Assembly: GCA_030740435.1 (NCBI GenBank)
Contig: JASLXG010000191.1
Span: 1-33,799 of the forward strand
Length of the DNA: 33,799 nucleotides
Source: Alphaproteobacteria bacterium
Lineage (GTDB): Bacteria; Pseudomonadota; Alphaproteobacteria; UBA2966
Direction of reading: 5' to 3'
The first letter of the stretch is position 1. Each line of letters starts with the position of its first letter. The notes under the pieces were generated by a model. It saw only the letters and a list, made by a program, of their open reading frames with translations, did no database searches and was not told the origin of the DNA. Positions 1,963-33,569 of this stretch are shown here, one piece after another. A program made the translations under genes and the position numbers.

Positions 1963-2640
1963 ATGTCCGGTTCAAGAATTTCACCGCCGGCAACCATCCC
2001 GCCCACAACCATCGCCGCCGACTATGCGGCCTGGGGAATAGAGATCTCCTTGGGCTGCCTGACGGCCACGGTAGCTGTGGGCGAGGGCGGGGCGGGGCTG
2101 GATGCGGCCATGGCGGCGGTGCTGGAGGCGGCGCCCGACGGCATCGCCGGGCTGCCCGCCATCGCGGCGACGCGCCGCGCCTACAAGGCAGGGGGCAAGG
2201 ATCCCAGCCGCTACCGGCCCTCGGCAGAAGCCTTGCTGCGCAGGCTGCGCCAGGGCAAAGGGCTCTATCGCGTTAACAACGTCGTCGATGTCACCAACAT
2301 GGTCTCGATTGCCAGCGGATTCTCTATCGGTATGTACGATCAGGCGCGGCTGGACGGGCCGCTGACGCTGCGCCCGGCCGCCGAGGGCGAAACCTACGCC
2401 GCCATCGGGCGGGGGCCGATCAATCTGGCCGGGCTGCCGGTGCTGTGCGATGCTGCGGGGCCCTTCGGCTGCCCCACCAGCGACAGCGAGCGCACGGCGA
2501 TCAACACCGGCACCACGGCCATATTGATGGTGATATTCGATTTCGGTGTGGCGCACGAGCTGCCGGCGGCTCTCGGCCAGGCGGTGGCCTGGATTGCCGA
2601 GCACTGCGCCGGCCGCGATATCGAGGAGTGCCTTTTGTGA
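1963..2640 (+). CDS. Stand-alone B3/B4 (PheT-like tRNA-binding) domain protein
   Basis: A 225-residue protein resembling solo B3/B4 domains (COG3382 type), which correspond to the editing-site domain of the phenylalanyl-tRNA synthetase beta chain. Diagnostic stretches are TRRAYKAGGKDPSRYRPSAE (residues 70-89), the basic LLRRLRQGKGLYRVNN segment (91-106) and VDVTNMVSIASGFSIGMYD (108-126). Solo B3/B4 proteins are annotated as RNA-binding or putative editing proteins; the role in a transport/catabolic operon is unknown. The start is supported by GAGG at 1949-1952, ten bases upstream of the ATG. The stop overlaps the GTG start of the next gene (GTGA at 2637-2640). A possible link is protection against mischarging by an amino-acid-like substrate or intermediate, but that is only inference. 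Confidence 0.85.
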   Translation: MSGSRISPPATIPPTTIAADYAAWGIEISLGCLTATVAVGEGGAGLDAAMAAVLEAAPDGIAGLPAIAATRRAYKAGGKDPSRYRPSAEALLRRLRQGKGLYRVNNVVDVTNMVSIASGFSIGMYDQARLDGPLTLRPAAEGETYAAIGRGPINLAGLPVLCDAAGPFGCPTSDSERTAINTGTTAILMVIFDFGVAHELPAALGQAVAWIAEHCAGRDIEECLL

Positions 2641-3497: not shown

Positions 3498-3542
3498 TAC
3501 CCAATCCGCTTGGTTGATTGCGGCAAGGCAGGAGCGGCGTCG

Positions 3543-7219: not shown

Positions 7220-7290
7220 CGGGGGGGATCGGAGACCCTGAATCCACTCGGCGACAGGTCGGCATTTTCCCGCTGTGTCCGGTAGGGGCA

Positions 7291-7318
7291 TTGACATCTC
7301 GGGCAAAAAGGATATACC
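7291..7318 (+). promoter_or_regulatory. Sigma-70 type promoter for the cold-shock gene
   Basis: A perfect -35 box TTGACA (7291-7296) and TATACC (7313-7318) are separated by 16 bases. Transcription from here would start near 7325 and give a 5' leader of about 140 nt before the cold-shock ORF, as is common for cspA-type mRNAs. A second TTGACA at 7371-7376 has no convincing -10 box. Confidence 0.6.
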
Positions 7319-7467
7319 TCGCCCCAACGTGATGCATTCGTTTGGTGCTACCTGAAGACCGGTACGCCGATTGACATGGTGCCCCCCTGACGATGTGAGC
7401 GTTCGACTGGCCGCGCTGTCACGTGGTGTGATATGCGGAAATATGGCCGCTGTTAGAGGAAACAACT

Positions 7468-7677
7468 ATGACTACCGGTACCGTCAAATGGTTCAACCCG
7501 AACAAGGGTTACGGGTTCATCGAGCCGGAAGATGGCTCGAAAGACGCCTTCGTGCATATTTCGGCCGTCGAGCGCGCTGGATTGAGCTCGCTCAACGAAG
7601 GCCAGAAGGTCTCGTACGAGCTTCAGCCCGGGCAGAACGGCAAATCTTCGGCCGAGAACCTTTCTCTGGTCGACTAG
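7468..7677 (+). CDS. CspA-family cold-shock protein
   Basis: A 69-residue single cold-shock domain that binds single-stranded RNA and DNA and acts as an RNA chaperone or antiterminator in the cytoplasm. RNP1 is KGYGFI (13-18) and RNP2 is DAFVHIS (26-32); KWFNPNKG precedes RNP1 as in the family. The ATG is preceded by GAGGA (7456-7460) at seven bases. The gene stands alone behind its own promoter and long leader and is followed by a GC-rich hairpin. The leader may fold and control translation with temperature, as for E. coli cspA, but no specific structure was established here. Confidence 0.96.
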
Positions 7678-7687
7678 CTGTACAAGG

Positions 7688-7716
7688 CGCCGCCCCCACT
7701 CCCGTTGGGGGCGGCG
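7688..7716 (+). terminator. GC-rich hairpin after the cold-shock gene
   Basis: CGCCGCCCCC (7688-7697) pairs perfectly with GGGGGCGGCG (7707-7716), with a further A-T pair and a 7-nt loop. It lies 10 nt after the stop codon. No T-run follows, so it may act as a pause or 3'-end stabiliser or need Rho. Confidence 0.6.
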
Positions 7717-7826
7717 GCCGCTCGTCTTCGGCGCTGCGGCTATCTATCGTGACAAGGACTGCTAGCGGCGGGTGATGGCTCGCGCCGTCCTTGCGCTCGA
7801 CAAGGCTTTTTACATTGCACATGAAT

Positions 7827-7853
7827 AGCGCGGCGGTCAGCGATGGCCGCGCT
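7827..7853 (+). other. Hairpin upstream of the small charged-protein gene
   Basis: AGCGCGGC (7827-7834) is the reverse complement of GCCGCGCT (7846-7853). It sits in the 237-base gap between the cold-shock gene and the next ORF, about 60 bases before the latter's start. Function unknown; no T-run follows. Confidence 0.3.
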
Positions 7854-7914
7854 TGTGGTGCGAGCCGATATTTGCCCTCGCCCCCGGCTCGAATTGCAGC
7901 GGAGGAATCCCGGG

Positions 7915-8118
7915 ATGTGGAAATCATCAAGGAAATCGGCCAAGTCGAAGGCCGAGGCGCTGTTCGCGGCGACCCAGAAGAAGGACCGGCAGGTCCTGGA
8001 CGAACGCGAAAGGGAGCGCCAGGAAAAAGCCGCCCACGTGGCCAAGCTGCGGGCTTTGCGCCTGGCCAAAGAGGCAGCCGACAAAGCGGAAGCCGAAGAA
8101 GCCAAAGCCAAAGCCTGA
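7915..8118 (+). CDS. Small charged helical protein, function unknown
   Basis: A 67-residue hypothetical protein. The ATG at 7915 has a near-perfect Shine-Dalgarno GGAGGA (7901-7906) eight bases upstream, which makes real translation likely. The sequence is almost entirely Lys, Arg, Glu, Gln and Ala with heptad-like spacing (FAATQKKDRQVLDERERERQ, then LRALRLAKEAADKAEAEEAK), predicting one long amphipathic helix or coiled coil. No catalytic motif, signal peptide or membrane segment is seen. It converges with the methyltransferase gene on the other strand, 14 bases away. Not recognised as a named family with certainty. Confidence 0.7.
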   Translation: MWKSSRKSAKSKAEALFAATQKKDRQVLDERERERQEKAAHVAKLRALRLAKEAADKAEAEEAKAKA

Positions 8119-8132
8119 TCCGCTTCGGATCT

Positions 8133-8966
8133 TCAGATCTTGCGGGCCACGAAGAAAGTGGTTTGGCCAACCTGGCGGCGCGGGGCATCGCTTTCCGCCA
8201 GATAGCTATCCAGCCCGCCCATTTCGCGCAGTTCCCTGATCTTGGCCTCGGCGGCGGCGATTTCCCCTGCCGGGGCCAGGGCCCAGCTCGAATCGGTCTT
8301 GCGCCACTCGGGCTTCAGTGGCCCCTCGGCGTCGGCGTAGGCCGCACCCTGCAGTACCCCGTCGAGCGGCACGAAACGGCCTTCGACGGCAAAACCCAAC
8401 TCGCCCAGCATGACCTCGAGTTCTGCTGCCGGGATGCAGCGGCCAAAGAGTTTCTCGAGCGCCGTCGGTATCAGGTGCATGAACCAAAAGCCCTGGCGAA
8501 GCTGTTCGTGGCTGCAACAATTGACGCTGACGACGCCACCGGGACGGAGTACGCGGTGGGCCTCCGCCAAAGCGCTGCGGTGGCCGGAAAAGCCGCCATC
8601 GCCGCCTGTTTCCAGGTGATGAAGCACCTGGTTGAACATCACGCCATCGAAGTGCGCCGTCTCGAAGGGCAAGCTCTCGATGCTGCCTTGATGGAAGGCG
8701 ATGCGGCAATCCTTGGCACCGTCCGCCAACTTCTGTTGGGCCACGGCCAGCATGCCGGGGTTGATGTCGATGGCCTCGAGGTGATCGACGTGGGGCAGCA
8801 CGAGATGGGCATAGGCGCCGGTGCCGCAGCCGGCATCGAGCAGCCGGAAGGGGGCGCCCGATTGCCGTGCCAGGGCCAGGGCGCCGAGCAGGATCTCGCT
8901 GCCGATGGGCTGACGGGTCGTGTCGTAATGTTGGGCGACTTCGGAGTAGTTCTCGTATTTGCTCAT
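8133..8966 (-). CDS. Class I SAM-dependent methyltransferase
   Basis: A 277-residue methyltransferase. Motif I, which binds S-adenosylmethionine, is LLDAGCGTGAY (42-52); the acidic ribose-binding residue lies in LEAIDINPGML (about 63-73); motif IV region reads FDGVMFNQVLHHL. The fold resembles the UbiE/Methyltransf_11 group. It is the last gene of a four-gene minus-strand operon and its start overlaps the stop of the upstream methyltransferase by four bases. The acceptor is unknown; coupling to hyuAB suggests a small-molecule substrate. Confidence 0.9.
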   Translation of the reverse strand: MSKYENYSEVAQHYDTTRQPIGSEILLGALALARQSGAPFRLLDAGCGTGAYAHLVLPHVDHLEAIDINPGMLAVAQQKLADGAKDCRIAFHQGSIESLPFETAHFDGVMFNQVLHHLETGGDGGFSGHRSALAEAHRVLRPGGVVSVNCCSHEQLRQGFWFMHLIPTALEKLFGRCIPAAELEVMLGELGFAVEGRFVPLDGVLQGAAYADAEGPLKPEWRKTDSSWALAPAGEIAAAEAKIRELREMGGLDSYLAESDAPRRQVGQTTFFVARKI

Positions 8967-10000
8967 ATGGGCCTCGGCTTTGCGCCATTCTGGGAAACGA
9001 TGAACTCCGGCGGTGCCACGAGGTCGAGGCGACCATCGCTATTCTCACCCTGCCAGAGCAATATCATTTCGCAGTTATTTTTCTCCGCTTGCAAGCCGTA
9101 ATGGGCTGCCAGCGGCGGCTCCAGCGCCAGTCTTGTTTCGTCCTGCCCGGCCTCGATGCGGCGGGAGATGTTCCGCGTCGAGGTCTCGACACTGGATAGG
9201 CTGACGGAATCGATGATGAACATGGCGAACAATGTGCCGCCGCCGTGGTCCGGGGCGAACTTCAGCCCGGCGCCGGCGATCGCCGCGCCGGCGAATTCGT
9301 ACCGCAAGAAGCTTACTGGCCGGGCGCCGATACCGTTTTTGTCGGGGCCGAGCAGCACCAGGAATGAGATCTCCTCGAGCGAAGGCGAGAGCTCGGCCAA
9401 GGAGGCGGTAGCAAAGCCGTTCGTGAACATTCCCGAAATTTCCCGCCATTCAGGATGCAGGCGCAAAAAATCCCTGACCGCCCAATTGACGCCGGGAAGC
9501 TGGAAATCGTCGACCAGCATGACGGCATTGTTGGCGGCGAAGCGGGCGCATTGGATGAGATCCGTCAGGGCCGCGGCGTGGCTATGGTCGCCGTCGATCA
9601 GGGCCAGGTCGAAACGCAGCCCCGGGTTCAAAGTCAGGCGTTTGAAAAAGTCGAGCGAGCCCACGGTGACGAATGTGGTGATATCCCGGGCCGCCTCGGG
9701 CCAACGCTGCATGGCCTCGTGAACCTCCGCCTCGCGGGTTTTCAGCAGATCGATGGTCAACAGTATGCCGCTGCCCGTATCGGCCAGCGCGCGGGCAATG
9801 ATCTCCGAGGTGCCGCCATAATAGGTGCCGATTTCGAGCACCGTGCCGGGTCGCTGCAACCTGACCAGGCCATCGACAAAGGCCCGCGAGGCGGGCGACA
9901 GCAACGAGGCTTCGGGAAAGGTCTCGAACGTGCTCAGCGTCGCGGCGAAGCTTTCGGCGCTGACGATGCCTCTGATTTGCTCAGCCAGATCGTCTCTCAT
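8963..10000 (-). CDS. Class I SAM-dependent methyltransferase with CmcI/Methyltransf_24-like domain
   Basis: A 345-residue protein. The N-terminal 190 residues form a methyltransferase domain: motif I is VLEIGTYYGGTSEII (54-68), the post-I Asp is in LLTIDLL (80-86), and the IDGDHSHAAALTDL block (135-148) is typical of the Methyltransf_24 and cephalosporin-hydroxylase-like group. Residues from about 195 to 345 are an extra domain I do not recognise; it may bind the acceptor. It overlaps by four bases with both neighbours (hyuB upstream, second methyltransferase downstream), so the four genes are probably translated together. Confidence 0.85.
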   Translation of the reverse strand: MRDDLAEQIRGIVSAESFAATLSTFETFPEASLLSPASRAFVDGLVRLQRPGTVLEIGTYYGGTSEIIARALADTGSGILLTIDLLKTREAEVHEAMQRWPEAARDITTFVTVGSLDFFKRLTLNPGLRFDLALIDGDHSHAAALTDLIQCARFAANNAVMLVDDFQLPGVNWAVRDFLRLHPEWREISGMFTNGFATASLAELSPSLEEISFLVLLGPDKNGIGARPVSFLRYEFAGAAIAGAGLKFAPDHGGGTLFAMFIIDSVSLSSVETSTRNISRRIEAGQDETRLALEPPLAAHYGLQAEKNNCEMILLWQGENSDGRLDLVAPPEFIVSQNGAKPRPI

Positions 10001-11673
10001 TTCTCATCCGCCCAATCGTAGTGTCGGCGGGCCGCGTCCGGGCTGACCTTGCCGTCGGCCAGATCGGCCTCGAGCGCCGTCCGGTCGCGCTCGGCCGCCG
10101 GACCGAAGCCGCCGCCGCCGGCGGTTTCGATGCGCAGGCGGTCACCGGCCGCCAGCTGGGTTACCGTCTTCGACGGGATTTCCTCGCGGCTGCCGTCGGC
10201 GCGCACGATCTGCGAGTGCGCCAGTGCTCCGGCCTCGCCGCCGGCCAGGCCCGCGGCGGCCGCGAAATGGCGCTCGCCGCGGTGCGAGAGTGACACCGGG
10301 CCTTCGAGGAATTCGAATTCCTTGATCACGCCGAGGCCGCCGCGGAACTTGCCGGCGCCTCCTGAATCTGGGCGCAAGGAGACGCGGTGGACGCGGATCG
10401 GCGCCTCCATCTCCATGGCCTCGGCCGGCAGGTTCATGCAGTTGGTGGCGTCGGTCTCGATGCCGTCGATGCCGTCGTGGCCGGCGCCGGCACCGGAGCC
10501 GCCGGCCAGCAGCTCGCCGGTGACGAAGGCCTTGCCGCTCTCCGCCATGCGGCCGCCAAAGGCCATCACCAGCAGCTCGCCGGCCGGGCTCGCCGGCACC
10601 CGGTCGGGCACGGCCTGGGCCAGCGCCCCCAGCATGCAGCCGGTGATGCGCTTGATCGTCGCGGTGCGGGCGTTGACCGGTGCCGGCTCGCGCGGGTTGA
10701 CCAGGCTGCCTTCCGGCAGCGTCAGCCGGATCGGCCGGAAGCAGCCGCCGTTGCTCGGGATCGAGGAATCGGTGATGGCGCGAACGGCGAAGCAGGCCGC
10801 CGCTAGGCTGCCCGACGGCACGCAGTTCATGGGGCCGGTTACCTGGGCGCTGGTGCCGGAGAGATCGAAATGGACGTCGTCGCCGGCCAGCGTCGCCGTC
10901 ACTTCGATGCGGATGCGCCGGTCGAGGTCGATGCCGTCGTTGTCGAGGTAGTCGACGTAATGGTAGCTGCCGTCGGGAATTTGCCGGAGCGCCGCCCGGG
11001 TCATGGCTTCGGAACGCTCGAGCAGGCGCTGGCAGACCTCGGCCAGGAATTCGGCGCCATGGCGTTCGACCAGGTCCCGGAGCCTCCGGATCCCGACCTT
11101 GCAGGCCGCCACCTGGGCGTTGAGGTCGCCGAGGAAGGTATCCGGTATGCGCACGTTCTGGCGCAAAAGCGCCGTCAGGGTGGGGTCGAACTCGCCCTCC
11201 CGGGCCCAGCGCACCGGGGGAATGCGCAGGCCTTCCTGGAACACCTCGGTGGCGTTGGTCGGTACCGAGCCCGCCGACATGCCGCCGATGTCCTGATGGT
11301 GCGTCATGGCGGCGGCATAGGCGACCAGGCGGTCGGTCGCGAACACCGGCATGATCACCGCCACGTCCGGCAAGTGCGTTCCGCCGCAATAGGGATCGTT
11401 CATCATGTAGATGTCGCCGGGCCGCATGTCGGCCGGCGGGAAGCGCTCGATGACGCTGGCCAGGCAGGGGATCAGCGTCGCCAGATGGATGGGGATGGCG
11501 CAGGCCTGGGCCAGCGTCTGGCCTTCCGGCGTGAACAGGCTGGCCGAGGCGTCCATGCCCTCCTTGACGATGGGCGAAAAGGACGAGCGCAGCAGCGTCG
11601 TCTCCATCTCCTCGGCGATGCCCTCGAAGCGGTGGCGCAGCACCTCCAGCGTGATGGCATCGATGTCACTCAT
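9997..11673 (-). CDS. hyuB: Hydantoinase/oxoprolinase subunit B (second copy)
   Basis: A 558-residue HyuB-type subunit. Family blocks are present: ETTLLRSSFSPIVKEGMDASASLF near the N-terminus, YMMNDPYCGGTHLPDVAVIMP near residue 90, SGTSAQVTGPMNCVPSG in the middle and the C-terminal TAGGGGFGPAAERDR. It is clearly diverged from the first copy (for example YMMNDPYCGG against YITNDPYQGG), so it is not a recent duplicate. Its start lies eight bases inside the 3' end of hyuA and its stop overlaps the methyltransferase start. Confidence 0.94.
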   Translation of the reverse strand: MSDIDAITLEVLRHRFEGIAEEMETTLLRSSFSPIVKEGMDASASLFTPEGQTLAQACAIPIHLATLIPCLASVIERFPPADMRPGDIYMMNDPYCGGTHLPDVAVIMPVFATDRLVAYAAAMTHHQDIGGMSAGSVPTNATEVFQEGLRIPPVRWAREGEFDPTLTALLRQNVRIPDTFLGDLNAQVAACKVGIRRLRDLVERHGAEFLAEVCQRLLERSEAMTRAALRQIPDGSYHYVDYLDNDGIDLDRRIRIEVTATLAGDDVHFDLSGTSAQVTGPMNCVPSGSLAAACFAVRAITDSSIPSNGGCFRPIRLTLPEGSLVNPREPAPVNARTATIKRITGCMLGALAQAVPDRVPASPAGELLVMAFGGRMAESGKAFVTGELLAGGSGAGAGHDGIDGIETDATNCMNLPAEAMEMEAPIRVHRVSLRPDSGGAGKFRGGLGVIKEFEFLEGPVSLSHRGERHFAAAAGLAGGEAGALAHSQIVRADGSREEIPSKTVTQLAAGDRLRIETAGGGGFGPAAERDRTALEADLADGKVSPDAARRHYDWADEK

Positions 11674-13747
11674 GCCGTGCCCTAGGGGCGCGGCGTTCGA
11701 TGAGCAAACTGCCGCCCTCTACGACGCCCGCCCGCCAGCCCGGCGGGATCAGCGTCGTGGTGTCGGCCTGCTCGACGATGGCCGGGCCGGCGATCCCGGC
11801 GCCCGCGGGCAGCGCTGTGCGATCGTAAATGGCGGCGCCGATGGTGCCGGCCGTGCCGTCGACGCTGATCGGGCGCTCGCCCTTGGATCGGGCGTCGTTC
11901 ACACCGGTTTCCTCGGCCGCTGACAGTATCGAAAGGTCGAGCTCGGCACCCCTGGCCCGGTGGACCGAGCGCAAGTTGACGATGCGGGCCGGGCCCTCGA
12001 TGGCGTGTCCGTGCACGCCTTCGTGGACGGCCAGGAAGGCGGCGTGAAGTGCCGCCGCCGGATCGCTGCCCGTGAGGTCGAGCGGCACTTCCAGGCTGTA
12101 GCTCTGGCCGATGTAGCAGATGTCGGCGAAATAGTGGATTTCCTGGCTGCCGGCGGCGACACCCTCGGCCGCCATCAGCTCGGCGCAGCGCCGGTCGATG
12201 GCGGCCAGCGCCGTTCTCGTGGTTTCCAGGTCGAGGTCTTCGAGCTCCCGGTGAAAGGCGGCCGTGACCTCGTGCTCGACCGCTGCCGCCAGCAGGCCGG
12301 TGGCCGACAAGACGCCCGGGGTCTGAGGCACGAGCACCCTTGCGATCCCCAGTTCGGCGGCCAGCGGCACGGCATGCAGCGCCCCGGCACCACCGAGCGC
12401 CAGCAGTACGAAGCCGCGCGGATCGAGCCCGCGGTTGACCGAAACCAGGCGAATCCCCTCGGTCATCTGGGCATTGGCCACCCGGTGGATGCCCAGCGCG
12501 GCTTCGTCGACGCCAATCCCCATCGGGCCGGCAATCACTTCGGCGATGGCTTGTCGCGCCCGCTCGGCATCCAGCGCCATGCTGCCGCCGGCGAAGTTCG
12601 AGGGGTTCAGGTAGCCCAGCACGACCGAGGCATCCGTCAGCGTGGGATCGGTTCCACCCTGGCCGTAGCAGGCCGGTCCGGGATCGGCGCCGGCCGACCG
12701 CGGCCCGACCCGCAGGCCTGCGGCGGCATCGAGCCAGGCGATGGAGCCGCCGCCGGCGCCCAGCGTGTTGATGTCGAGCATGGGCACGCGCACGGAAAAG
12801 CCGGCGATCTCGCTTTCCGGCCGCACCAGCGCCTGGCCGCCGGAGACCAGTGCAATGTCGCAACTGGTGCCGCCCACGTCGAGGGTGATGAGGTCATCGA
12901 ACCCCGCCGCCCGCCCCGCCGCCCGGCCGCCGATGACGCCGGCCGCCGGCCCCGAAAGAAACAGCCTGACGGGCCGCTGACGCGCCACTTGGGCCGCCGC
13001 CAGGCCGCCGCGCGATTGCATGATCTGCAAGGGCGCCGGTACGCCGGCCGCCGCCAGGTCGCGCTCCATGGCGCCCAAGTAGCGGTCGACCACGGGTTTC
13101 GAGTAGGCATCGAAGGCGGTGACGCAGGTGCGCTCGTATTCGCGAAAGGTGGGATCGACGTCGGACGAGAGCGACACCATGACGCCGGGATGGTGCGCTT
13201 CGATGTACTCGCGCGCCGCCTGTTCGTGCTCGGGGTGCAAAAACGAAAAGAGAAAACAGACGGCAATGGTTTCGACCTGCTGGCCGACCAACCCGTCCAC
13301 CGCCCGGGCCAGCGAATCCGCATCCAACGGCACCAGCACCTCGCCCGCCGCCGAGACCCGCTCCCGCACCTCGGCCCGCCGCGCCCCCGGTGCCAGGAAC
13401 ACCGGCGTCTCGGGCTCGAGGCGCAAGTCATACATCTGGCGCCGCATCTGGCGGCCGAGCTCCAGCACGTCACCGAAGCCCTCGGTGGCCAGTATCCCGG
13501 TCCGCCCGCCACGGCGTTGCAGCACGGCGTTCGTCGCCACCGTGGTGCCGTGCGCGAAACGCACCAGCTCGCTGGCTTTTAGATTCCATTCAGCTTCCAT
13601 GCGCTCGAAGCCCGCCCGTATGGCCTCGCTGGGATCGGCCGGCGTGCTCGGCACCTTCATCAGGCGAATGCCGTCGGCGCCCCGGCAAACGATGTCGGTA
13701 AAGGTGCCGCCTGTATCGATGCCGATTTCGTAAACTGGATCAGCCAT
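11666..13747 (-). CDS. hyuA: Hydantoinase/oxoprolinase subunit A (second copy)
   Basis: A 693-residue HyuA subunit heading the minus-strand operon. The start at 13747 places the ATP-binding motif IDTGGTFTDIVCRG at residues 10-23, as in the family; an open frame continues about 49 codons upstream but has no family similarity. The second phosphate loop reads LDVGGTSCDIALVSGG near residue 290. The C-terminal part ends with the usual GPAIVEQADTTTLIPPGW block. Its stop overlaps hyuB by eight bases. Nothing convincing as a promoter was found in the 166 bases upstream. Confidence 0.93.
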   Translation of the reverse strand: MADPVYEIGIDTGGTFTDIVCRGADGIRLMKVPSTPADPSEAIRAGFERMEAEWNLKASELVRFAHGTTVATNAVLQRRGGRTGILATEGFGDVLELGRQMRRQMYDLRLEPETPVFLAPGARRAEVRERVSAAGEVLVPLDADSLARAVDGLVGQQVETIAVCFLFSFLHPEHEQAAREYIEAHHPGVMVSLSSDVDPTFREYERTCVTAFDAYSKPVVDRYLGAMERDLAAAGVPAPLQIMQSRGGLAAAQVARQRPVRLFLSGPAAGVIGGRAAGRAAGFDDLITLDVGGTSCDIALVSGGQALVRPESEIAGFSVRVPMLDINTLGAGGGSIAWLDAAAGLRVGPRSAGADPGPACYGQGGTDPTLTDASVVLGYLNPSNFAGGSMALDAERARQAIAEVIAGPMGIGVDEAALGIHRVANAQMTEGIRLVSVNRGLDPRGFVLLALGGAGALHAVPLAAELGIARVLVPQTPGVLSATGLLAAAVEHEVTAAFHRELEDLDLETTRTALAAIDRRCAELMAAEGVAAGSQEIHYFADICYIGQSYSLEVPLDLTGSDPAAALHAAFLAVHEGVHGHAIEGPARIVNLRSVHRARGAELDLSILSAAEETGVNDARSKGERPISVDGTAGTIGAAIYDRTALPAGAGIAGPAIVEQADTTTLIPPGWRAGVVEGGSLLIERRAPRARHE

Positions 13748-13914
13748 GTACGCGCCCCGCCGGAAATCGTCCGCGCCCTTGGTAGCACTTCCGGCAGGGC
13801 TCAGGCCACGATTGATGGGGGAGGGGGGTGGCGTCCCACACCCTACACTTCCGGAAACCCGGTCCGGCCGGGCCATCATGAAGTCCGCCGGCAACCTCCA
13901 GTGACGCTGCCGGG

Positions 13915-14691
13915 CTAGATCCCGCTGAAATCCGCCGGCCGTTTCTCCTCGAAGGCGGCGATGGCCTCGCGGTTGGCGGGGCCGCCGACGAGGCTGGCGA
14001 AGGTTTCGTCCTCGCGCGCCCGGGCGGCGCGGACGGCGTCGAGGCGGGCGGCCAGCAGGAGTTTCTTGTTGGCCACCAGGGCAGCCACCGGCATGGCGGC
14101 GATCTTGGCGGCCAGAGCGTTTGCCGCGGCCTGCAGCTCGGCGTCCGGCACCAGGGCTTGGGCGAGGCCGCAGGCCACCGCCTCAGGGGCCTCCAGCCAA
14201 TCGCCGGTATAGAAAAGTTTCGCCGTGGCGGCGGCGCCGATGGTGGCCGGCAACAGGAACGAGCTGCCGGCCTCGGCCGAGACGCCCAGGCTGACGAAGG
14301 GCGCCTTGAGGCGCGCGCTTTCGGCCATCAAGACGAAATCGCAGTGCGGCAAGAGCGTCAGGCCGATGCCGACGCCGATGCCGTTGACGGCGGCGATGAG
14401 GGGCTTGGGAAAGGCTTCGACGGTCTCGATGAAATCCCTGAAGCCGGCGTCCATGCGCTCCTCGTGGCTGCGCCCGTCGGCCAGCTCGCCAAGGTCCTGG
14501 CCGGCCGAAAAAGCCCGGCCCTTGCCCGTCAGCACCACCACGGCGACGTCGCCGTCGGCGGCCGATTCCTTTAGCGCCCGGGTGACGGCAGCGTAGAGCG
14601 CGTCGTTGAAGGCGTTCAGCGCCTGCGGCCGGTTCAGGGTCAGCCGGCGGACCCGTTTTTCATCATTGATGCGCAGGAGATCGTCGGTCAT
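13915..14691 (-). CDS. Enoyl-CoA hydratase/isomerase (crotonase) family protein
   Basis: A 258-residue crotonase-fold enzyme acting on CoA thioesters. The first oxyanion-hole segment is AFSAGQDLGEL (60-70) and the second NGIGVGIGLTLLPHCD (about 104-119). The conserved LGVSAEAGSSFLLP block carries a Glu in the usual catalytic position and resembles the hydratase/isomerase subgroup. It begins nine bases after the cyclase-hydrolase gene, so it may be co-transcribed with it. The substrate is unknown. It is intact, unlike the two broken genes upstream. Confidence 0.9.
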   Translation of the reverse strand: MTDDLLRINDEKRVRRLTLNRPQALNAFNDALYAAVTRALKESAADGDVAVVVLTGKGRAFSAGQDLGELADGRSHEERMDAGFRDFIETVEAFPKPLIAAVNGIGVGIGLTLLPHCDFVLMAESARLKAPFVSLGVSAEAGSSFLLPATIGAAATAKLFYTGDWLEAPEAVACGLAQALVPDAELQAAANALAAKIAAMPVAALVANKKLLLAARLDAVRAARAREDETFASLVGGPANREAIAAFEEKRPADFSGI

Positions 14692-14700: not shown

Positions 14701-16094
14701 TCAAGATTCTACAGTTGCCAAAAAATCCCTGGCCTCTTGCAGAAACCGCGGCCAGGCCGGCTCGTCCTCGAGGATCAGATGGTTGTGGCCCTCCAGCGCC
14801 ACGAAACGGGCGCCGGGGATGCTTGCCGCCATGCGGCGCCCGGCGTCGAAGGGCACGATGCCGTCGTCACGGCAATGCAGTACCAGGGTGGGCACCGAGA
14901 TGCCTGCCAAGAGGTCGCTGACGTCGATGTTGTTGGTGAGGCCGCGCAAGCGGGCGGCGGTTTCCGGCGAGGTCGTGTTGCGCTGCATTTCGTTGAACCA
15001 GTCCATCTGCTCCTTGCTGGCGCCGGGCATGAATCTCGTGGTGAAGAATTGGCGGAAGGCGGGATTGTCCTGGCCCCAGCCTTCGCGAATCATCTGGGTT
15101 TCCAACGCCGCCATCTGTTGGTCGGCCTCGGATCCCGTTTGCAGCCCACCCTTGGCGAAACCGCCGTAGAGCAACAGGCGGCTCACCTTCTCCGGATGGC
15201 GGATGGCGTAGGCGATGGAATAGCTACAGCCTTGCGAAATGCCAAAGAGCGGAAAGCGCTCGAGGCCGGTGACCTCGATCACCGACGCCAGGTCGTCGAC
15301 CATGCTGTCGAAATCGATAGTGGCGCGTTCCAGTCGGAGAGGCCGTTGCCGCGCTGGTCGAAGCGCACCAGGGTGTGGTCCCGGGCAAAGGCTCGCAGCA
15401 GGTGGCCCCAGACCGGGCTTTGCCAGTCGTATTCGAGGTGATGCATCCAGTTGGGCGCCTTGACCAGGGGCGGGCCATCACCCACCGTGGCATAGGCGAT
15501 GGTGACGCCGTCGGCGGCTTGGCAAAAGCGGATTTCCTGCTGCAAATCATCGGGGAGCGCAGTCGCGGATTCCCTGACTTCGCTGCCGCCCGGCCGGCCG
15601 ATGCGCCAGACGCGCAAGGGCGCCGAGACGTGCTTGACGGTCTTGTCGCCGAGATCCTCGAAGGGCGCCTCGATGCGGTTGCGAACCGCCTCGTAGACCA
15701 GGCCGGAGAGGCAGATGCTGCCGGGATCGGCCAGGCCCTCGAGGCGGGCCGCCAGGTTGACGCCCTCGCCGTGAATGTCCTCGCCGTCGTCGATGACGTC
15801 GCCGAGGTTGACGCCCATGCGGAATTCGAGCGGGCTGGCGGCCAGTTCGTTTTGCATGGCGATGGCGCAGTTGACGGCATCCTGGGCGGTGGCGAATTCA
15901 GCCAGAAAGCCGTCGCCCGTATGCTTGACGATGCGCCCCGAAAGCCTGGCGATGGCCGGATCGATGACCTCGGATCGGGCCTCGTGCCAGGCGGCCACGG
16001 TGCCGTCGGTATCCTGTTCCATCAGGCGCGTGTAGCCGGCGATGTCGGCCGCCAGGATGGCTACGAGCCGGCGGCTGATTTCCTTCTCGGCCAT
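14701..16094 (-). pseudogene. Class III adenylate cyclase fused to alpha/beta hydrolase, frameshifted
   Basis: The N-terminal part (start 16094, with AGGAGG before it) is a class III nucleotide cyclase domain that makes cAMP. The metal-binding aspartates are Asp17 in LAADIAGYTRL and Asp61 in KHTGDGFLAEF, and the transition-state block is GEGVNLAARLEGLADPG (107-123). From about residue 185 an alpha/beta hydrolase begins (VRFDQRGNGLSDWN, then in another frame MVDDLASVIE and the nucleophile elbow GISQG). The frame breaks at 15323-15327, after SDWN. Adding one base, or removing a GC pair from the GCGCG run, restores one protein of about 464 residues with the family order. Cyclase-hydrolase fusions of this type are known in proteobacteria. 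Either a mutation or a sequence error; the cyclase half alone might still be made. Confidence 0.85.
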
Positions 16095-16126: not shown

Positions 16127-16504
16127 TTAGCCCAGACGGCTTGCTGAGGCCGAAAAAATCTTGCGCCAGACCAGCCCCAGTGCCGCGAGCAACAAGAGCG
16201 CCGCGGCGGCGACGTTGTTGAGCGGCAGCAGCAACTCGCCGAGCAGTCGGTCGTCGAGCGGGACCAAGGGCAAGGCGAGACCTTGAAGCAGCAGGCCTGC
16301 CGCCCCTTGCAGCGGTGCGGCGAGCAACCAGAGGCAGATGGCGAGGGCCAGGCCCAGAGCGATCCGGGCGAGCCGCGGGCGGCGGCCTTGGGCCTCGATG
16401 CGGGCCATCACCTGGGCGCTGAAGGCTTCCGCCGGCAGCTCCTGCTCGGCCTCGGCGAACATTGCTTGCAGGCCAAGGTCGCGGTCGTCGCGGTTGTCGG
16501 TCAT
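16127..16504 (-). CDS. Short membrane protein, possible anti-sigma factor
   Basis: A 125-residue protein with a soluble acidic N-terminus (residues 1-40, DNRDDRDLGLQAMFAEAEQELP) and two to three hydrophobic segments (about 48-66, 68-82 and 96-112). Its start overlaps the stop of the sigma factor gene by four bases (ATGA at 16501-16504). Position and layout suggest an anti-sigma factor that tethers the sigma factor at the membrane, but no zinc-binding HxxxCxxC motif is present, so the role is inferred from context. Confidence 0.7.
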   Translation of the reverse strand: MTDNRDDRDLGLQAMFAEAEQELPAEAFSAQVMARIEAQGRRPRLARIALGLALAICLWLLAAPLQGAAGLLLQGLALPLVPLDDRLLGELLLPLNNVAAAALLLLAALGLVWRKIFSASASRLG

Positions 16505-17096
16505 CGGGGATCCTCCGATTCAGGGCGCTCGGCGTAGGCGGACAGGAGTTGCCGCAGGCGCTGGGCGCCGCGGCGGATGTGGGATTTGACGGTGCCTGCG
16601 GGCAGGTCCGTGAGTTCGGCGATTTCGCCGTGGCTCAGGCCCTCGGCGTAGGACAGCACGAGGCAGGTGCGCACGGGCCCGGCCAGCCTCGCCAGGGCGG
16701 CGTCGAGGTCCATGGCAAGGCCGTTGGCCGCTGACTGGGCGCGGCCGGGATCGATATGCTCGTCGAATTCCTCGGCGCCGCTGAGAGCGTCCTGGCGGCG
16801 CTGGTGCTGCAGCCAGGTGCTGACGGCCAGGCGCTTGAGCCAGGCACCGAAAGCCTGGGCCTGGCGCAAGCCCGCGATACCGCGCCAGGCCTGCAGGAAG
16901 GTTTGTTGCGCGCCAGGTCGTCGGCCAGCGCGGCATCGCCGCTGAGGCGCCGCATCAGGTTGCGGATCCAGGATTGGCGCCGCCGGACCAACTCGGCAAA
17001 GGCGTCCCGGTCGCCGGTCCGGGCCAGGCCGACGACCAGGGATTCGGGTGCTTGGGCGTATTCGGCCCGGGAGTCATCGGTCTTCGTGGGGGGCAC
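16501..17096 (-). pseudogene. ECF-type sigma-70 family RNA polymerase sigma factor, frameshifted
   Basis: Two frames together encode a group 4 sigma factor. From GTG 17096 the first frame gives region 2 (VVGLARTGDRDAFAELVRRR, then LSGDAALADDLA). The second frame continues with QQTFLQAWRGIAGLRQAQAF and region 4 (LAGPVRTCLVLSYAEGLSHG, EIAELTDLPAGTVKSHIRRG). The break lies in a (GC)3 run at 16908-16913. Removing one GC restores the canonical DLAQQTFLQAW motif and a 197-residue protein, so a dinucleotide expansion is the simplest explanation. As written, no full sigma factor can be made without frameshifting. It overlaps the possible anti-sigma gene downstream and follows a DUF6249-like gene by 18 bases. 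Confidence 0.88.
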
Positions 17097-19543: not shown

Positions 19544-19814
19544 CTAGCCCGCATTTCTCACCGGGTCACGGCCTGCGTCGCCCCCAGGTGATGCGATCCG
19601 GAAGGGATAGGTCGATGAGCGTAGTGGGATTACGCTCTTCGACCTTTTCCGTAGCGGGCGCGCGGCTGGGGGCGACCCTTCGGGCGTCACTGTGGCGCCG
19701 ACAGGGTGCGTTGCGCTGCTTGCCCGATGTCCCCACATCGCGCGGCGCAGCGCGCCTACCCTGTCGACGCCACAGCGACGCGCAGGCCATGACCCGGTGA
19801 GAAATGCGGGCTAG
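19544..19814. mobile_element. MITE-like palindromic element with 25-bp terminal inverted repeats
   Basis: A 271-bp element without coding capacity fills most of the 384-base gap between the amidase and SnoaL-like genes. Its ends, 19544-19568 and 19790-19814, are perfect 25-bp inverted repeats beginning CTAGCCCGCATTTC. They extend inward with gaps to about 39 bp. Between them are two further arms: GTCGCCCCCAG (19577-19587) against its complement at 19666-19676, enclosing a hairpin (19610-19623 with 19631-19644), and a long imperfect arm 19684-19782 with a perfect CGATGT-CCCC-ACATCG tip (19725-19740). Both ends carry CTAG, consistent with a TA-type target site. No transposase is inside, so it would be mobilised in trans. 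Confidence 0.75.
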
Positions 19815-20380: not shown

Positions 20381-22907
20381 CTATGAGCGCCGTTTGATCC
20401 GGGCGCGCTGGTAGTCGAGCAAATCCGCCAGCGTTTGTTCCAGCGCGATCTCGGGCTGCCAGCCGGTGGCGGCCTTGAAGGCCGAGCAGTCGGGGATCTG
20501 CAAGGTGACGTCGGAAGGCCGCATGAGCGCCGGATCGACCTCGTGCTCGATGGCTACCTTGGCCATGCCCTTGAGCATTTCCAGCATCTCGCCCACCGTC
20601 ATGGTGCGCTCGTCGCCGATGTTGTAGACGGCACCGGGCGGGCATTTCTCCAGCAGCAGCCAATAGCCGCGCACGGCGTCGCGCACGTCGGCGAAGGTGC
20701 GCACGCTGTCGAGGTTGCCGACCTTGACCGGATCCGAGCGAATCCCGGCCTCGATTTCGGCGATTTGCTTGGCAAACGCGCTTTCGGCGAAAACATCGCC
20801 CCGCCGCGGCCCGGTGTGGGTGAACATGCGGGTGCGCAGCGTGCGCATGCCGTAGGACAAAAAGTATTGTTGCGCAATCATGTCTTCGCCGACCTTGGAG
20901 ACGGCGTAGGGGCTGGCCGGGCGCAGCGGGTTGGTCTCGCGGATCGGTAGCTCGTCCTGGTTTACCTGGCCGTAGACCTCGGACGACGAGCAGATGTGGA
21001 TCAGCGGATCGAGGCCCGAAAGCCTTACCGCATCGAGCAAGTTCGTGGTGCCGATGACGTTGGTGTTGAGCGTGTCGGCGGCGCTGTCGAAGCTCACTTG
21101 GACGTAGGACTGGGCCGCCGCCAGGTCGCCTTCTTGGCTGAGGTCGCGAAAGCCGTCAAAGCCCTGGCGCAGGGTCCGTGATATGGGCTCGTCGTCGTCC
21201 GGCGTCAGGCCATAGCCCAGGATCTCGAAGCGTTCGCGGTCGTGGGCCAGGAGCAGCTCGCGGAAGGCAAGACCGACGCTGTGGGCACGAAAATCCGGTG
21301 AGATGTAGCCCAGCCAGGGTCTTTGGCGCGTGCTATCGTGAAGAAATGGCGCCGCCGTCGGGGCGGCGGCGGCAGCCTGGGCCGATATCCGCCTGGCCAG
21401 TTCGACCCCCAACGCCTCGGCCTCCACGGGCAGGCTATAGAGCGCGAAAGGTGAAACCGTGACCTCCTGGTCGCCGGCCACTTCCCTGGTCGCCAAGTCC
21501 ATCACCCGGGTCACCGTGGCGCCCAGGTTCCGCCAGTTGCATTCGCGCAGCAGCGCGTGGGCCAGCGGCGTAAAGGCGGCGCTTTGATCGGGCCAGCGTT
21601 CGACGACGCCGCGAAAGAGCTCGATGGCCTCGGCGTAGCGCTCGATGCGGAAGAGCAGCGCGGCGGCATTGAAGGGCGGGCTGGGCTCGTCAGGGGCGGC
21701 CCGGGCGGCCTGGCGATAGCGCTCCAGCGCCTCGTCTTGGCGGCCCGCCGATTGCAACACGTTACCGAGATCATTGAGCAGCGCGTAGTTGCCCGGCTGG
21801 CGGGCCAGCGCCGTCTCGAAGTGCGCCACCGCCTCGGACCAGCGTCCCTCGGCCTGGCGCAGCGCCGCCAGTCCGGCCTCGTGGTGCCAGGCCGAGGGAT
21901 CGATTTCGCGACAGCGCAAGTAAAGCGCTTCGGCTTCCTCGAGCCGTCCGGCTCGGCGCCGCAAAGTGGCCAGGTTGAGCAGCGCCTCGTGTAGTCCGGG
22001 ATCCAACCGCAGCGCCCTGGCGAAGGCGGCTGCGGCGGCCTCGGGCTCTTCCAGCCGCATATGGACCCGGCCCAGTGTGCAATGCGCCTGCGCCAGCTCG
22101 GGCGTCAGTGCCAGGGCCTGGCGACAGGCCTGGGCCGCCGCCTCGGGCCGTTCCAGCGCCAGCAAGCGGACGCCGCAATTGAGCAGCAATGCGGCATTGT
22201 CGGGCGCGCCTTCGATAACCCGCAGGAAGGCCAAGGCGGCGGCCGCGGCGTTGTCCTCCGAGATCTCCATCACGCCCCAGATGGTAGCGTGTCAGGACAT
22301 CGCCTGGGTCGAGCCGGGCGGCCGCCTCGAGGTCCCGGCGGGCGGGCTCGGGTTGTTCCAGGGTCAGCCACAGTTCGCCGCGTTGGCGTAGCGCTTCGGG
22401 CCACTCGGGGCGGTTGGCCAGGGCCCGGCCGTAGCTCTCGATGGCGGCTTTGCTGTGGCCCTCGAGGCCGAGCATGAAAGCCAGGTTGTAGTTGGCCTCG
22501 GGGCTTTCCGGTTGCTGCGCCAGGGCGCGCCGCAGGCTCTCGACGGCGGCCCCCACCTGGTTTCGTTGGGCCAGGATCTCAGCCTGGCGGCAAAGCGCCA
22601 CGAAGTGGTCAGGGTCGAGCGCCAGGGCGCGGCGGCAGCAGTCCTCGGCGGCCTCGAGCCCGCCGTCCAGGGCTCGGGCCTGGGCCAGCTCGGCCCACAG
22701 CCCGGGGTCCTCTTCCAGTGCCAGCGAGCGCTCCAGCCAGCGTCCGGCCTCGGCCGCCTAGCCCGCCACCAGGGCGATGACCCCAATCCGGCCCAGCGCC
22801 ACGGCGTGGCCCGGGTCGTCGGGGCCGATCCGGCGGTAGGCTGCGGCCGCCTCGAGCAAGTGGCCGGCCTTTTCCAGCGCCTGGGCGGCGGAGAGGGCGG
22901 GGCTCAT
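20381..22907 (-). pseudogene. Chimeric TPR-SPINDLY protein joined to GDP-mannose 4,6-dehydratase C-terminus, with stop and frameshift
   Basis: Begins at ATG 22907, overlapping the upstream SPINDLY stop by four bases. The reading is MSPALSAAQALEKAGHLLEA..., interrupted by TAG at 22758-22760, then by a shift in a run of four C at 22275-22278 (removing one restores YHLGVMEISED). Repaired, it is about 841 residues: TPR repeats (to about residue 440), the beginning of a SPINDLY/O-GlcNAc-transferase-like domain (WLGYISPDFRAHSVGLAFRE...DGFRDLSQEGDLAAA), and then, with no frame change, an SDR domain starting AAQSYVQVSFDSAADTLN and continuing through CSSSEVYG, the active-site SPYAVSK, HTGPRRG and the normal C-terminus. 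The glycosyltransferase lacks its C-terminal two thirds and the dehydratase lacks its N-terminal NAD-binding GxxGxxG. The joint is at about 21107-21126. Neither enzyme should be active. Confidence 0.85.
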
Positions 22908-24612
22908 GCCCGGGCTCCAGCTTCGGCGGGCAGGGCGGGGACCTCGAGGCGCCGGGGGCGGGGCCCGCCTTGGCGCTGGCAATCCACCATCATTTCGATG
23001 CCGGTTTCGAAATGGCGCGCGAAGCGCTGGCTGTCGAAGAGCGGCTGGTTCAGACGGTTGGCGGCCAGCCGGGCGCGCAGCTTGGCCAGGCCTGCGCGGT
23101 CCGCGGCCAGGCCGATGGCTTGGCGCTGGAAGGCATCGAGATCGTCGGCGATCAATTCGGCCAGCCCCAGGGCGGCCACCAGCGGCGGCCCCGCCAGGTT
23201 GCCCTCGGCGCCGCCGTAGGCCAGCACCGGCACGCCTGCCCACAGCGCCTCCAGCGTGGTCACGCCGCCCGACTGGAAACGCGTATCGAGCATCAGATCG
23301 GCGAGGCCCTGGCGCGCCAGGTGTTCGGGCTGCGGCCGCTTGGCCGCGAACACCAGGCGCTCGCCGGCGACACCGCGCAGCTCGGCCTCACGGCGGAGGT
23401 TGGCCTTGGCCGTGTCGACGCCGTCGAGCAGCCACAGCAGCGAGCCCGGGGTTTTCTTGAGAATGCGCATCCAGGCGGCAAACATGCCCGGGTCGAACTT
23501 GTAGTGCCAGGCGAAACTGGCGAACACGAAGGCTGCCTCGGGCAGCCCTTCCTGGTCGCGCCGCGGCGGCTCGGCGATCTCGGGGCGCGGCGCCGGCAAC
23601 GAGTTCTCGGGCAGCATGATCAGGGTTTCCGGCCAAAAGCGTTGGCGCTCGGGCGGGCAATAGCGGGCGTCGCTGAAAAGATAGGGTAGGAAGTCGGCGC
23701 CCACGGTATCGCCGAAGCCGAGGAAATGGGCCTGTACCGGTGCTGGGCGCAAGGCCAGAATGCCCAGCCGTGCCCCGCGGGTGTGGCCGGCCAGGTCGAT
23801 CAGCACGTTGATCCGGTCCCGGTTGATGGTCTCCGCCGCGCTCTTGTCGTCGAGCGCCGAGAGGTCACGAAAGTGCTCGAAGCGCTGGCCCAGCAGGCGG
23901 GCCACGGCGTCGCCCGGCTGGGCCTGGGAGAGCGCGAAACCGAAGATCTCGAAACGTTGTCGATCATGCGCCGCCAGCAGCTCGGCCAGGGCCTGGCCGA
24001 CGCTGTGGGTGCGCAGGTCGGGCGAGAGGTAGCCCAGCCTGAGGCGCTCGGGTCGCGGCCAATCGTGGCTCAGGCTGGACGGACCGGCGGCCCGGGCCAC
24101 CTCGGCCGAGACGTGCTGCGCCACGGCCGCCGCCAGGGCGTCTTCGCGACAGGGCAGGCTGTTGAGGGAAAAGGGTGCGACATTCAGCGCCTCGCCGTCG
24201 TCGAGGCGCTGGCGCAGCGCCGTGATGGCGCGTTCCATGACGGCGCTCAGGTTGGACCAGGCACAAAGCTGCATCAGTGCCTGGGCCAGCGGCAGGTAGG
24301 CGTCTTCGTAATCGGGCCAGCGTTTGACCAGGCGGTTCAGCAGCACCGCCGCTTCGTCGACGAAGTCGAGCACCAGCATCAGGTTGCCGAGATTGAAAAG
24401 CGGCCGCGGGTCGTCGGGATCGAGGTCCATGGCGCGGCGGTAGGCCTGGCCGGCGTCCTGGGTGCGGCCCAGCGCCTGCAGCGCCACGCCCAGGTCGTTG
24501 TGCCCGGCGGCCCAGCCGCGGGAGCCTCGGCCAACGCCTGCTGAAAGGCCACCACCGCCCGTTCGGTCTGCCCCGCCTGAAGGAGCGCCCGCGCCTCGCT
24601 CTCGCTGCTCAT
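22904..24612 (-). pseudogene. TPR-SPINDLY family (O-GlcNAc transferase-like) glycosyltransferase, frameshifted near the start
   Basis: A TPR plus GT41-type protein. The first frame from 24612 reads MSSESEARALLQAGQTERAV, then VAFQQALAEAP; the second continues WAAGHNDLGVALQALGRTQD and on to the end. The break is in CCGCGG at 24516-24521: removing a CG pair gives AEAPGW and restores the exact 34-residue TPR spacing, so a dinucleotide insertion is likely. After the TPRs the transferase domain shows LRLGYLSPDLRTHSVGQALA, NVLIDLAGHTRGARLG, AHFLGFGDTVGADFLPYLF, DTRFQSGGVTTLEALWAGVP and GLAELIADD, all typical of bacterial SPINDLY-type enzymes that transfer sugars to proteins. Apart from the shift it is complete (about 568 residues when repaired). 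It sits beside a degenerate paralogue downstream. Confidence 0.85.
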
Positions 24613-24701
24613 GGCCCCGGTCTAGGCGGTTATGGTTAAGAAACGGGAAAAGCGGTTGGTTGGTAAGGGGGGGCGTGTGGCCGGGGTTAGTCCAAAAAAC
24701 G

Positions 24702-25910: not shown

Positions 25911-27023
25911 TCAGCCCTGGCCAAATGAACGCAGCGCGGCAATGGCGCGGTCGACGTTCTCCAGCGGCTGAGCCGGGCCGCAAGGCAGGTTGAAGCCCTC
26001 GGTGTGGAAGCGTTCGGAGTGGGGGAAAGATGCGGCGCCGGCGGCGAAATGCTCGGCACTGTGGACGCAGGGCAGGAAGGGCCGGGTCTCGATGCCCTGG
26101 GCCGCCAGATGGGTAACGATGGCGGTGCGCTGGGGCGACACCACCTCGGTCCAGACCGCCACCTCGCCCGCCTCGACCGCAACGGGCACCAGATCGAGAA
26201 AACTAAGATCGGCCAAGGCCGTGGCGTAGCGGCGGTAGATGGCGTTGCAGTGCTCCGCTTTGGCCGGCAGCCGGCGGACCTACCAGAGGCCGATGGAAGC
26301 CAGGATGTCGGTGAACTTGAAGTTGCCGCCCACCCCCAGGTAATCGTGCGAGACGACGTCGCGGACACCATGGTTGCGGATAGCCACTAGCCGCCGATAA
26401 AGCGCTTCATCGCGGGTTACCAGGGCGCCGCCCTGGCCGGTCGAGGTCAGCTTGACCATGCCGAACGAGAAACAGCCGATGTCGCCGAGCGTGCCCAGAT
26501 AGCCCTGCGGTGTGCGCGAATAAAGCGCCTGGGCGGCGTCTTCGACCACGGCCAGGCCACGCTGGCGGGCGATTTCGAAGACCCGGGCATCGACCGCCCG
26601 GCCGTTGAGGTGAACCGGAATTATGGCCTTGGTGCGGTCCGTGATGTGGGCGGCGAGGCGCTCGACGTCCAGGTTCGGCGATTCGGCGCCGCAATCCACC
26701 AGCACCACCCGGGCGCCCAGCAACGAAGCGGCATGGGCCGTGGCGATGAAGGTGCGGGTGGGCACGATGACCTCGTCGCCCGGGCCGATGTCGAGCGCCA
26801 GCAGCGCCATCATCAGGGCCACGCTGCCGCTGGTCGTGGCCACGGCATAGGGCACCTCGAGGCGGCGGCAGAGCTCGGCTTCGAGCTCGGCCGTCACGGC
26901 CCCCATGGAGATTCGTTCCCGGGCCAAACTGTCGAGGATAGTGGCGCGCTCGTCCTCGCCGATAGCAGTACGCCACCAGGAAACCGGCTCAGCCGGCTCT
27001 AAGTTAAGGGCGGCTTGCGGCAT
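25911..27023 (-). pseudogene. DegT/DnrJ/EryC1-type PLP aminotransferase with internal amber codon
   Basis: A sugar aminotransferase-type gene, 370 codons in one frame, interrupted by TAG at 26280-26282 (codon 248). Before it: VPYAVATTSGSVALMMALLA (58-77), EDAAQALYS (161-169), and the PLP-binding Lys191 in FSFGMVKLTSTGQGGALVT. After it: VRRLPAKAEHCNAIYRRYAT and the C-terminal domain ending at 25911. In this family the position is commonly Gln (GLxQLxRL), and TAG is one C-to-T change from CAG. As written a 247-residue truncated protein would be made, without the small domain, or full length by readthrough. It follows the Gfo/Idh/MocA gene by four bases; such pairs often make aminosugars for surface glycans. 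Confidence 0.85.
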
Positions 27024-27027
27024 GGCC

Positions 27028-28107
27028 TTATTCGTTTCCCACGTGGGCCTGCCAGATGGCCTCTATGAGAGCCATGTCCTCGAGCGCGTCCTGGCGGCTG
27101 GCGATGGGCTGGCGGCCGTGGTGCACGTCGGCCACGAAGGCTTCGGCCTGGCGCCGGAAGGACCAGCTCCAGTTGGCCAGCGGCGCCACGATTTCCTCGC
27201 CGCGGCCGGTGTTGCGGTAAAGCTCGACCTTGGTCGGCACGTTGCGCAGCAGGGCCGGCGGCAGGCTGAGCTTGAGGCGGTCGCGGCTGAACACCACTTC
27301 GACCCCCTCGATCCAATCGTTGTGGTCCATTTCGCCGTATTCCAGCACCGCCGGGAAGCTGGCGAAATCGAGCAGCACGGTGCCGCCGTGGCGTCGCCTG
27401 AGATCGGCGTGGCGCACCTCGGGCGTGTCATTGCAGAGGTGGCGCAGCAGGTTGATGGCGTGGACGTAGACGTTGACGAAATTGTCGTAATCGTCGTGCC
27501 AGGTGCGGGGCAGCCATTCCGGTGCCAGCGACCAGGACGGCAGCTCGTCGGGCCTTGGCTCACCGGAATCGACGAAGCCCGGCATGTTGCAGTAATCCTG
27601 GCCGCCGTAGCAGAAAAGCCGCACCAGCAGCACCTCGCCCAGTTCCTTGCTTTCCCTGAGTTCAGCCAGCATCCGGCGCGCCATCTCGACGCCCTCGTCG
27701 TGGCGCCGCATGGAGCCGACGGCATAGACCGTGCCCGGCTGCTGCGCCCCGACCAGGGTGCTGGCCTGATCCAGCGTCGCGGCCATGGGCTTTTCCGTCA
27801 GCAAATGGCGTCCCGCCCGCAGGCATTCGAGCGCGATGGGGCCGGTGTGGTGGCGCCGGGTGACCACGACCACGGCCTCGATGTCGGGGTCTTCGAGCAT
27901 TTCGCTGTGCCGGGCGTAGGCCCTGGGGATGTCGTAGCGCTTTGAGACCAGTTCGCGGAGCTTTGGCCGCACCTCGGCCAGGCCCAGCACGCGGCATTCG
28001 GGGATGTCGGCGTAATTGGCCAGATGGGCGAGCTGGCCCACGAAACCGGCCCCGATCATGCCGATGTTGAGGGGTTCGATGTGCTCTGCGGATTCCATTG
28101 ATTTCAT
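27028..28107 (-). CDS. Gfo/Idh/MocA family NAD(P)-dependent oxidoreductase
   Basis: A 359-residue sugar or cyclitol dehydrogenase-type protein. The N-terminal Rossmann motif is IGMIGAGFVGQ (15-25) and the conserved EKPMA segment appears near residue 105. The C-terminal alpha/beta domain contains the DDYDNFVNVYVHAINLLRHL segment. The family oxidises or reduces sugar hydroxyls with NAD(P). It heads the aminotransferase and SPINDLY cluster, with only four bases before the aminotransferase, suggesting that the two make a modified (amino)sugar. A good promoter lies about 65 bases upstream. Intact. Confidence 0.9.
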   Translation of the reverse strand: MKSMESAEHIEPLNIGMIGAGFVGQLAHLANYADIPECRVLGLAEVRPKLRELVSKRYDIPRAYARHSEMLEDPDIEAVVVVTRRHHTGPIALECLRAGRHLLTEKPMAATLDQASTLVGAQQPGTVYAVGSMRRHDEGVEMARRMLAELRESKELGEVLLVRLFCYGGQDYCNMPGFVDSGEPRPDELPSWSLAPEWLPRTWHDDYDNFVNVYVHAINLLRHLCNDTPEVRHADLRRRHGGTVLLDFASFPAVLEYGEMDHNDWIEGVEVVFSRDRLKLSLPPALLRNVPTKVELYRNTGRGEEIVAPLANWSWSFRRQAEAFVADVHHGRQPIASRQDALEDMALIEAIWQAHVGNE

Positions 28108-33076: not shown

Positions 33077-33145
33077 ATGAAAACCGCTATAGTGGGTGGA
33101 AACTGCGCGGCGGTTTGGTTTAAGGAGCTGCACTGCAATGAGTGA
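33077..33145 (+). CDS. Possible 22-residue leader peptide
   Basis: A tiny ORF, MKTAIVGGNCAAVWFKELHC followed by Asn and Glu, with GGAG two bases before its ATG. Its TGA at 33143-33145 overlaps the start region of the next ORF (ATG 33138), so translation could be coupled. No family is recognised; it may be chance. Confidence 0.3.
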   Translation: MKTAIVGGNCAAVWFKELHCNE

Positions 33146-33569
33146 TCGAGACGATTTTGATCCTAAAGAATTAACCTTCTCTGAGCGAGAGGGCATCGAT
33201 CCTCTACCGGAGCGATTGAAGCTCGGTGAATTACCGAAAAAATCAAGGGCTTTGCTTTGGAATGTCATTTATCAAATTTTTGAACGCAACAGATATCACC
33301 CAAAATTTGGGGGAGAATCATTGATTGGACAGTCTGCATTTTTGGAATTAGTAAAGAGATTTCATGTAAGGTACTTTGGCAATCCGGTGGATGAATTTCG
33401 AAATTACTTTGATCAAATTATTCCAGAGCATAAGGCGGTTATCTTAGGGCATGATTATCATGAAGTATTGAATTATATTGAATATTTTATCCAAAATACA
33501 GTTGACCATGCTGAGCGTCGGCAGCTTGCAGAGCAAATTTCCTTCGAACTAGGGCCTGTTGACAATTAG
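33138..33569 (+). CDS. AbiJ N-terminal-domain-like protein, probably truncated by an IS
   Basis: A 143-residue protein in an AT-rich segment unlike the rest of the window. The segment TFSEREGIDPLPERLKLGEL followed by RALLWNVIYQIFERN resembles the N-terminal domain of AbiJ-type abortive-infection proteins (AbiJ-NTD4: FSERxG...LW), which usually precede a HEPN-like effector domain in proteins of about 250-350 residues. The start at 33138 has AAGGAG (33122-33127) ten bases upstream. The last residues (GPVDN and the stop) come from bases that look like the terminal repeat of the adjacent IS5-family element, so the native C-terminus was probably lost on insertion. Low GC suggests horizontal acquisition. 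The anti-phage role is inferred from family resemblance only. Confidence 0.65.
   Translation: MSDRDDFDPKELTFSEREGIDPLPERLKLGELPKKSRALLWNVIYQIFERNRYHPKFGGESLIGQSAFLELVKRFHVRYFGNPVDEFRNYFDQIIPEHKAVILGHDYHEVLNYIEYFIQNTVDHAERRQLAEQISFELGPVDN
33549..33565. other. Putative end of the IS5-family element at a CTAG site
   Basis: CTAG (33549-33552) is followed by GGCCTGTTGACAATT, just outside the transposase stop (33566-33568). This resembles terminal repeats of IS5-family (IS427-like) elements. The other end lies outside the window, so the exact boundary and target duplication cannot be read. Confidence 0.45.

Follow-up and report, generated by a model that had tools for sequence, protein, structure and literature searches.

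What does a single open reading frame encode when its first part resembles a TPR-SPINDLY glycosyltransferase and its second part a sugar-nucleotide dehydratase: a new enzyme, the remains of two broken genes, or a product of assembly? The frame lies on the 33,799-nucleotide contig JASLXG010000191.1 of an alphaproteobacterial draft genome (GCA_030740435.1), and this whole stretch is called the window here. An earlier note had described the frame as an in-frame chimera of SPINDLY and a GDP-mannose dehydratase-like enzyme. The analysis confirmed the chimera, because the frame is open for 630 amino acids and carries Pfam domains of both parents. The preferred reading, with a probability of roughly 0.7, is that a deletion fused two decaying genes of a sugar-modification locus and that the product is probably non-functional. 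The chimera and its parts are as follows.

20381–22273, minus strand: chimeric open frame of 630 amino acids with a GTG start, a TAG stop and no internal stops
21119–22273, minus strand: in-frame tail of a broken second SPINDLY gene, with TPR repeats and GT41 positions 76–146 of 543
21113–21119, minus strand: the joint, whose exact base is ambiguous (GCC is shared)
20381–21118, minus strand: C-terminal three quarters of a GDP-heptose/GDP-mannose-type 4,6-dehydratase (PF16363 positions 83–331 of 332), 91% identical to the protein of a same-genus genome (G001) and 80% to that of an intact relative (L114)

Up to residue 384, the chimera consists of TPR repeats followed by a short portion of the Pfam profile Glyco_transf_41. 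From residue 386 onward, the last 245 residues match the Pfam profile GDP_Man_Dehyd with E=2e-54. In other words, the 5′ portion of one gene and the 3′ portion of a second share a single frame, as is seen in deletion-born fusion genes. The view that each half lacks essential parts was borne out. The catalytic domain of the GT41 half is incomplete, with about 400 of the 543 profile positions absent. The dehydratase half retains the YxxxK catalytic motif as YAVSK and lacks the N-terminal nucleotide-binding glycine motif (GxxGxxG), the NAD(P)-binding motif, together with the first ~77 residues. The intact relative L114 displays this motif as GITGMVG near its start, and homology to the chimera sets in at about its residue 78. 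Both parents had been named correctly in the earlier note, except that the dehydratase is nearest to a GDP-heptose enzyme among solved structures: the best solved match of L114 is GDP-D-glycero-D-manno-heptose 4,6-dehydratase (PDB 7us5).

The joint had been placed near 21107–21126 and is now narrowed to 21113–21119, inside that range. A role of microhomology had also been proposed. The joint and the unfused G001 dehydratase have only three bases (GCC) in common, or seven with one mismatch, which is no more than chance in GC-rich DNA and is not evidence for such a mechanism. No direct repeat was found at the joint. The in-frame joining also says little, because two coding sequences on the same strand join in frame one time in three. 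Thus, neither the short shared bases nor the in-frame joining carries weight for function.

The dehydratase is found unfused in relatives. In the same-genus genome G001 (contig NZDS01000142.1 of a Rhodospirillaceae MAG), homology to the unfused gene begins at the joint and extends over 244 residues, and the neighbours of the gene, SnoaL-like and amidase genes, are those seen in the window. The second half has homologues in 38 other genomes, whose matches start at query residue 71 or 72 or further in, at or beyond the joint. The single match that reaches back to query residue 18 is a 35% match in G134 and belongs to an ordinary 361-aa frame. The two halves are therefore not a matter of chance similarity, because the homologues in the 38 genomes match from the joint onward and are unfused. 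The fusion itself was found in no other genome among a sample of 385 genomes of the class. A recurrent, conserved fusion was rejected on this ground and because a scan of GTDB contigs gave only unfused dehydratases.

Between the dehydratase tails of the window and G001, dS is 0.42 and dN is 0.055. Their ratio of 0.13 indicates that purifying selection acted on the gene during most of the time since the two diverged. G001 was rejected as a complete reference, because a repeated element at the end of its contig abuts the dehydratase gene and removes the start codon. With this repeat immediately before the gene, G001 does not show how the locus was arranged ancestrally in the genus. The repeat (L075 14306–14414; G001:C148) occurs ~10 times at contig ends of G001 and twice in the window's genome.

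Could the joint be an artefact, with unlinked or more distant stretches joined during assembly or in a chimeric library molecule? This explanation is unlikely, and less likely than a deletion. The genome is a draft of 236 contigs with 3% contamination, and the joint is present in this one genome only among the 385, as an artefact would be. However, a repeat at the joint, considered as a cause of misassembly, was rejected because none of assembler word length was found; elsewhere in the genome, the joint region is matched at best over 26–31 bases with 84–89% identity, and the parents share only the 3–7 bases mentioned above. Furthermore, the dehydratase side is anchored, since SnoaL-like and amidase genes adjoin it here just as they do in the sister genome, and the intact pieces are absent elsewhere in a genome that is 98.6% complete. 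In particular, no second copy of the missing dehydratase front was found in the window's own genome. The idea that full parents are duplicated elsewhere, and that the chimera is an extra copy, was likewise rejected as none were found there.

The region upstream of the chimera has the following parts.

22904–24613, minus strand: first, complete TPR-SPINDLY (GT41) gene (PF13844, E=9e-68) with a predicted start codon
22761–22907, minus strand: first 49 codons of a second SPINDLY gene, whose ATG overlaps the stop of the first (ATGA)
22758–22760, minus strand: in-frame TAG in the second SPINDLY gene
22292–22757, minus strand: continuation of the second SPINDLY gene past its stop codon, still in the original frame, with TPR repeats (E=1e-16)
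22274–22291, minus strand: frameshift inside a TPR repeat at about position 22280, where the coding signal switches frame

In a codon-usage scan, the coding signal follows a single frame from 22907 past the TAG as far as ~22300 and then passes into the frame of the chimera, in which it runs unbroken across the joint until the dehydratase ends. What the earlier note had overlooked is that the 630-aa frame forms the tail of the second SPINDLY gene, which is already broken twice upstream. This second gene carries the disrupting lesions of a pseudogene, namely the TAG, the frameshift and the loss of the catalytic domain. Because of the TAG and the frameshift, a ribosome that starts at the real start at 22907 cannot reach the chimera. 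Tandem arrays of ~4–5 GT41/SPINDLY genes were observed in two genomes of the same family (G002:C144, 71–90 kb; G004:C6, 23–42 kb).

A functional new protein would have to be translated from an internal GTG or ATG at 22273 or 22270, giving a TPR platform fused to the C-terminal part of a dehydratase. The 630 codons of open frame with coding-like codon usage throughout speak for such a protein, as does the good conservation of the dehydratase tail. It is nevertheless very improbable: both halves are without essential parts, a stop codon and a frameshift lie upstream, no relative carries the fusion, and the conservation of each half is older than the fusion. There is an equally slim chance that the frame is a young fusion protein soon after its birth: a stable product of the internal start, with the substrate-side part of a sugar-nucleotide dehydratase attached to a TPR platform.

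How would a deletion have produced the chimera? The layout of the full parent genes was examined in the 20-kb surroundings of eleven dehydratases of the class. Two of these loci, L220 and L223, encode a complete GT41 protein (694 and 714 aa) and a complete dehydratase of 338 aa on one strand; the ~2.3 kb that separate the two genes contain genes for an HddA-like kinase and an HddC-like guanylyltransferase. The deletion equivalent in them, from the end of the part matching the head of the chimera to the start of the part matching the tail, is ~3.2–3.4 kb. The earlier suggestion of a deletion of perhaps 2 kb or more thus held up, and a deletion of a few kb is likely. The search that it had proposed for relatives with the two full genes side by side succeeded in part. 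Two genomes have both genes on the same strand, but the genes are ~2.3 kb apart and the genomes belong to another family of the class, with SPINDLY proteins 24–26% identical to the chimera head. In L114 and L115, more distant intact relatives at 80% identity, a full 327-aa dehydratase is clustered with HddA-like and HddC-like genes. No HddA homologue was found in the genome of the window or in G001, while the same query has matches in 10 of the 11 relatives' loci, and no close HddC homologue was found in the window's genome, where the best match is 39% over 109 residues. The lack of an HddA homologue and of a close HddC homologue there fits a loss of the genes between the parents.

The parent layout in these distant relatives supports a deletion, with the ancestral layout inferred from two distant genomes. 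In the ancestor, a GDP-heptose-type 4,6-dehydratase gene would have shared a strand with two tandem TPR-SPINDLY (GT41) genes, and further genes would have separated it from the second of these. A deletion of ~3 kb, a size suggested by L220 and L223, would then have taken out the GT41 catalytic core, the intervening genes and the dehydratase's nucleotide-binding front, and the remainders of both genes would have happened to join in frame. As neither half keeps a complete active site, the product most likely has no enzymatic function and is probably decaying. Points against this reading are that the SPINDLY-dehydratase layout was seen only in another family of the class, that the G001 contig hides the ancestral layout, and that 630 codons past the lesions remain open and show good codon usage.

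Signs of decay are also present in the neighbourhood.

25911–27062: DegT/DnrJ/EryC1 aminotransferase gene with an in-frame TAG at 26280–26282, behind which the profile continues
14701–16094: cyclase-domain and alpha/beta-hydrolase gene that looks frameshifted
16501–17096: ECF-type sigma-factor gene that looks frameshifted

Given the truncated halves, the lesions upstream and the DegT gene cut by a TAG, a decaying glycan locus is the most likely state of this region. Both nonsense codons examined are TAG. A reassigned TAG was considered and set aside: TAG and the other normal stops close many genes, this frame among them, and a homology list of internal stops gave a mixed picture. One could also suppose that the stop, the frameshift and the joint are partly consensus errors in a poor contig whose underlying genes are intact. 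Several frameshifts in one contig are what such errors would leave, and in a rough homology test interrupted genes were more numerous in this genome than in the reference genome G003. Shadow frames in GC-rich DNA had spoiled the list of internal stops, and the comparison uses only a cleaned count, as a rough hint. On the other side, most large genes at 285–14691 match the full length of their profiles without interruption, so indel errors are unevenly distributed. Nor would consensus errors typically change one base to give a TAG or join two genes. Consensus errors are accordingly a highly doubtful explanation.

Two other elements were observed in the window. A ~270-base element at 19544–19814 has terminal inverted repeats of ~34 bases and some 40 full or partial copies in the genome at 83–97% identity, and is absent between the same genes in the sister genome. 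It looks like a member of a MITE family. The contig end (33000–33799) has a low GC content and contains an AbiJ_NTD4-like frame (33141–33566), followed by the end of a DDE transposase. The AbiJ_NTD4-like gene is possibly a recently acquired gene of a defence type.

The parents of the chimera belong to known systems. A modular TPR glycosyltransferase of the GT41 sort is FlmG of Caulobacter. Like TPR-SPINDLY or O-GlcNAc-transferase-like GT41 enzymes, the chimera has TPR repeats followed by part of a GT41 domain, and it lies directly behind a complete GT41 gene; it differs from them in the domain positions that it has lost. Its tail resembles the 7us5-type dehydratase of the PF16363 family, with the YxxxK motif kept, but it lacks the front of that enzyme, and the kinase partner HddA was not found in the genome. 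Deletion-born bacterial fusion genes are a described class, for example acrR-glcD and mlaE-htpX in the Mycobacterium tuberculosis complex (Kaul et al. 2026 preprint, PMC12803068). The chimera is similar to these mycobacterial fusions in that partial genes are joined into one frame and ancestral catalytic motifs are lost. In contrast to them, it is known from a single draft genome, and its upstream partner is already a pseudogene. The chimera is thus a further candidate for a deletion-born fusion in a draft genome and not a new enzyme class.

Deletions in decaying loci can splice unrelated genes into long open frames, and the chimera is one more natural example. Such frames risk being annotated as novel multidomain enzymes. 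In this case, the unfused gene of the sister genome and a check for lesions upstream indicate that the chimera is probably not an enzyme. If it is expressed, the chimera would be a case of gene birth by deletion.
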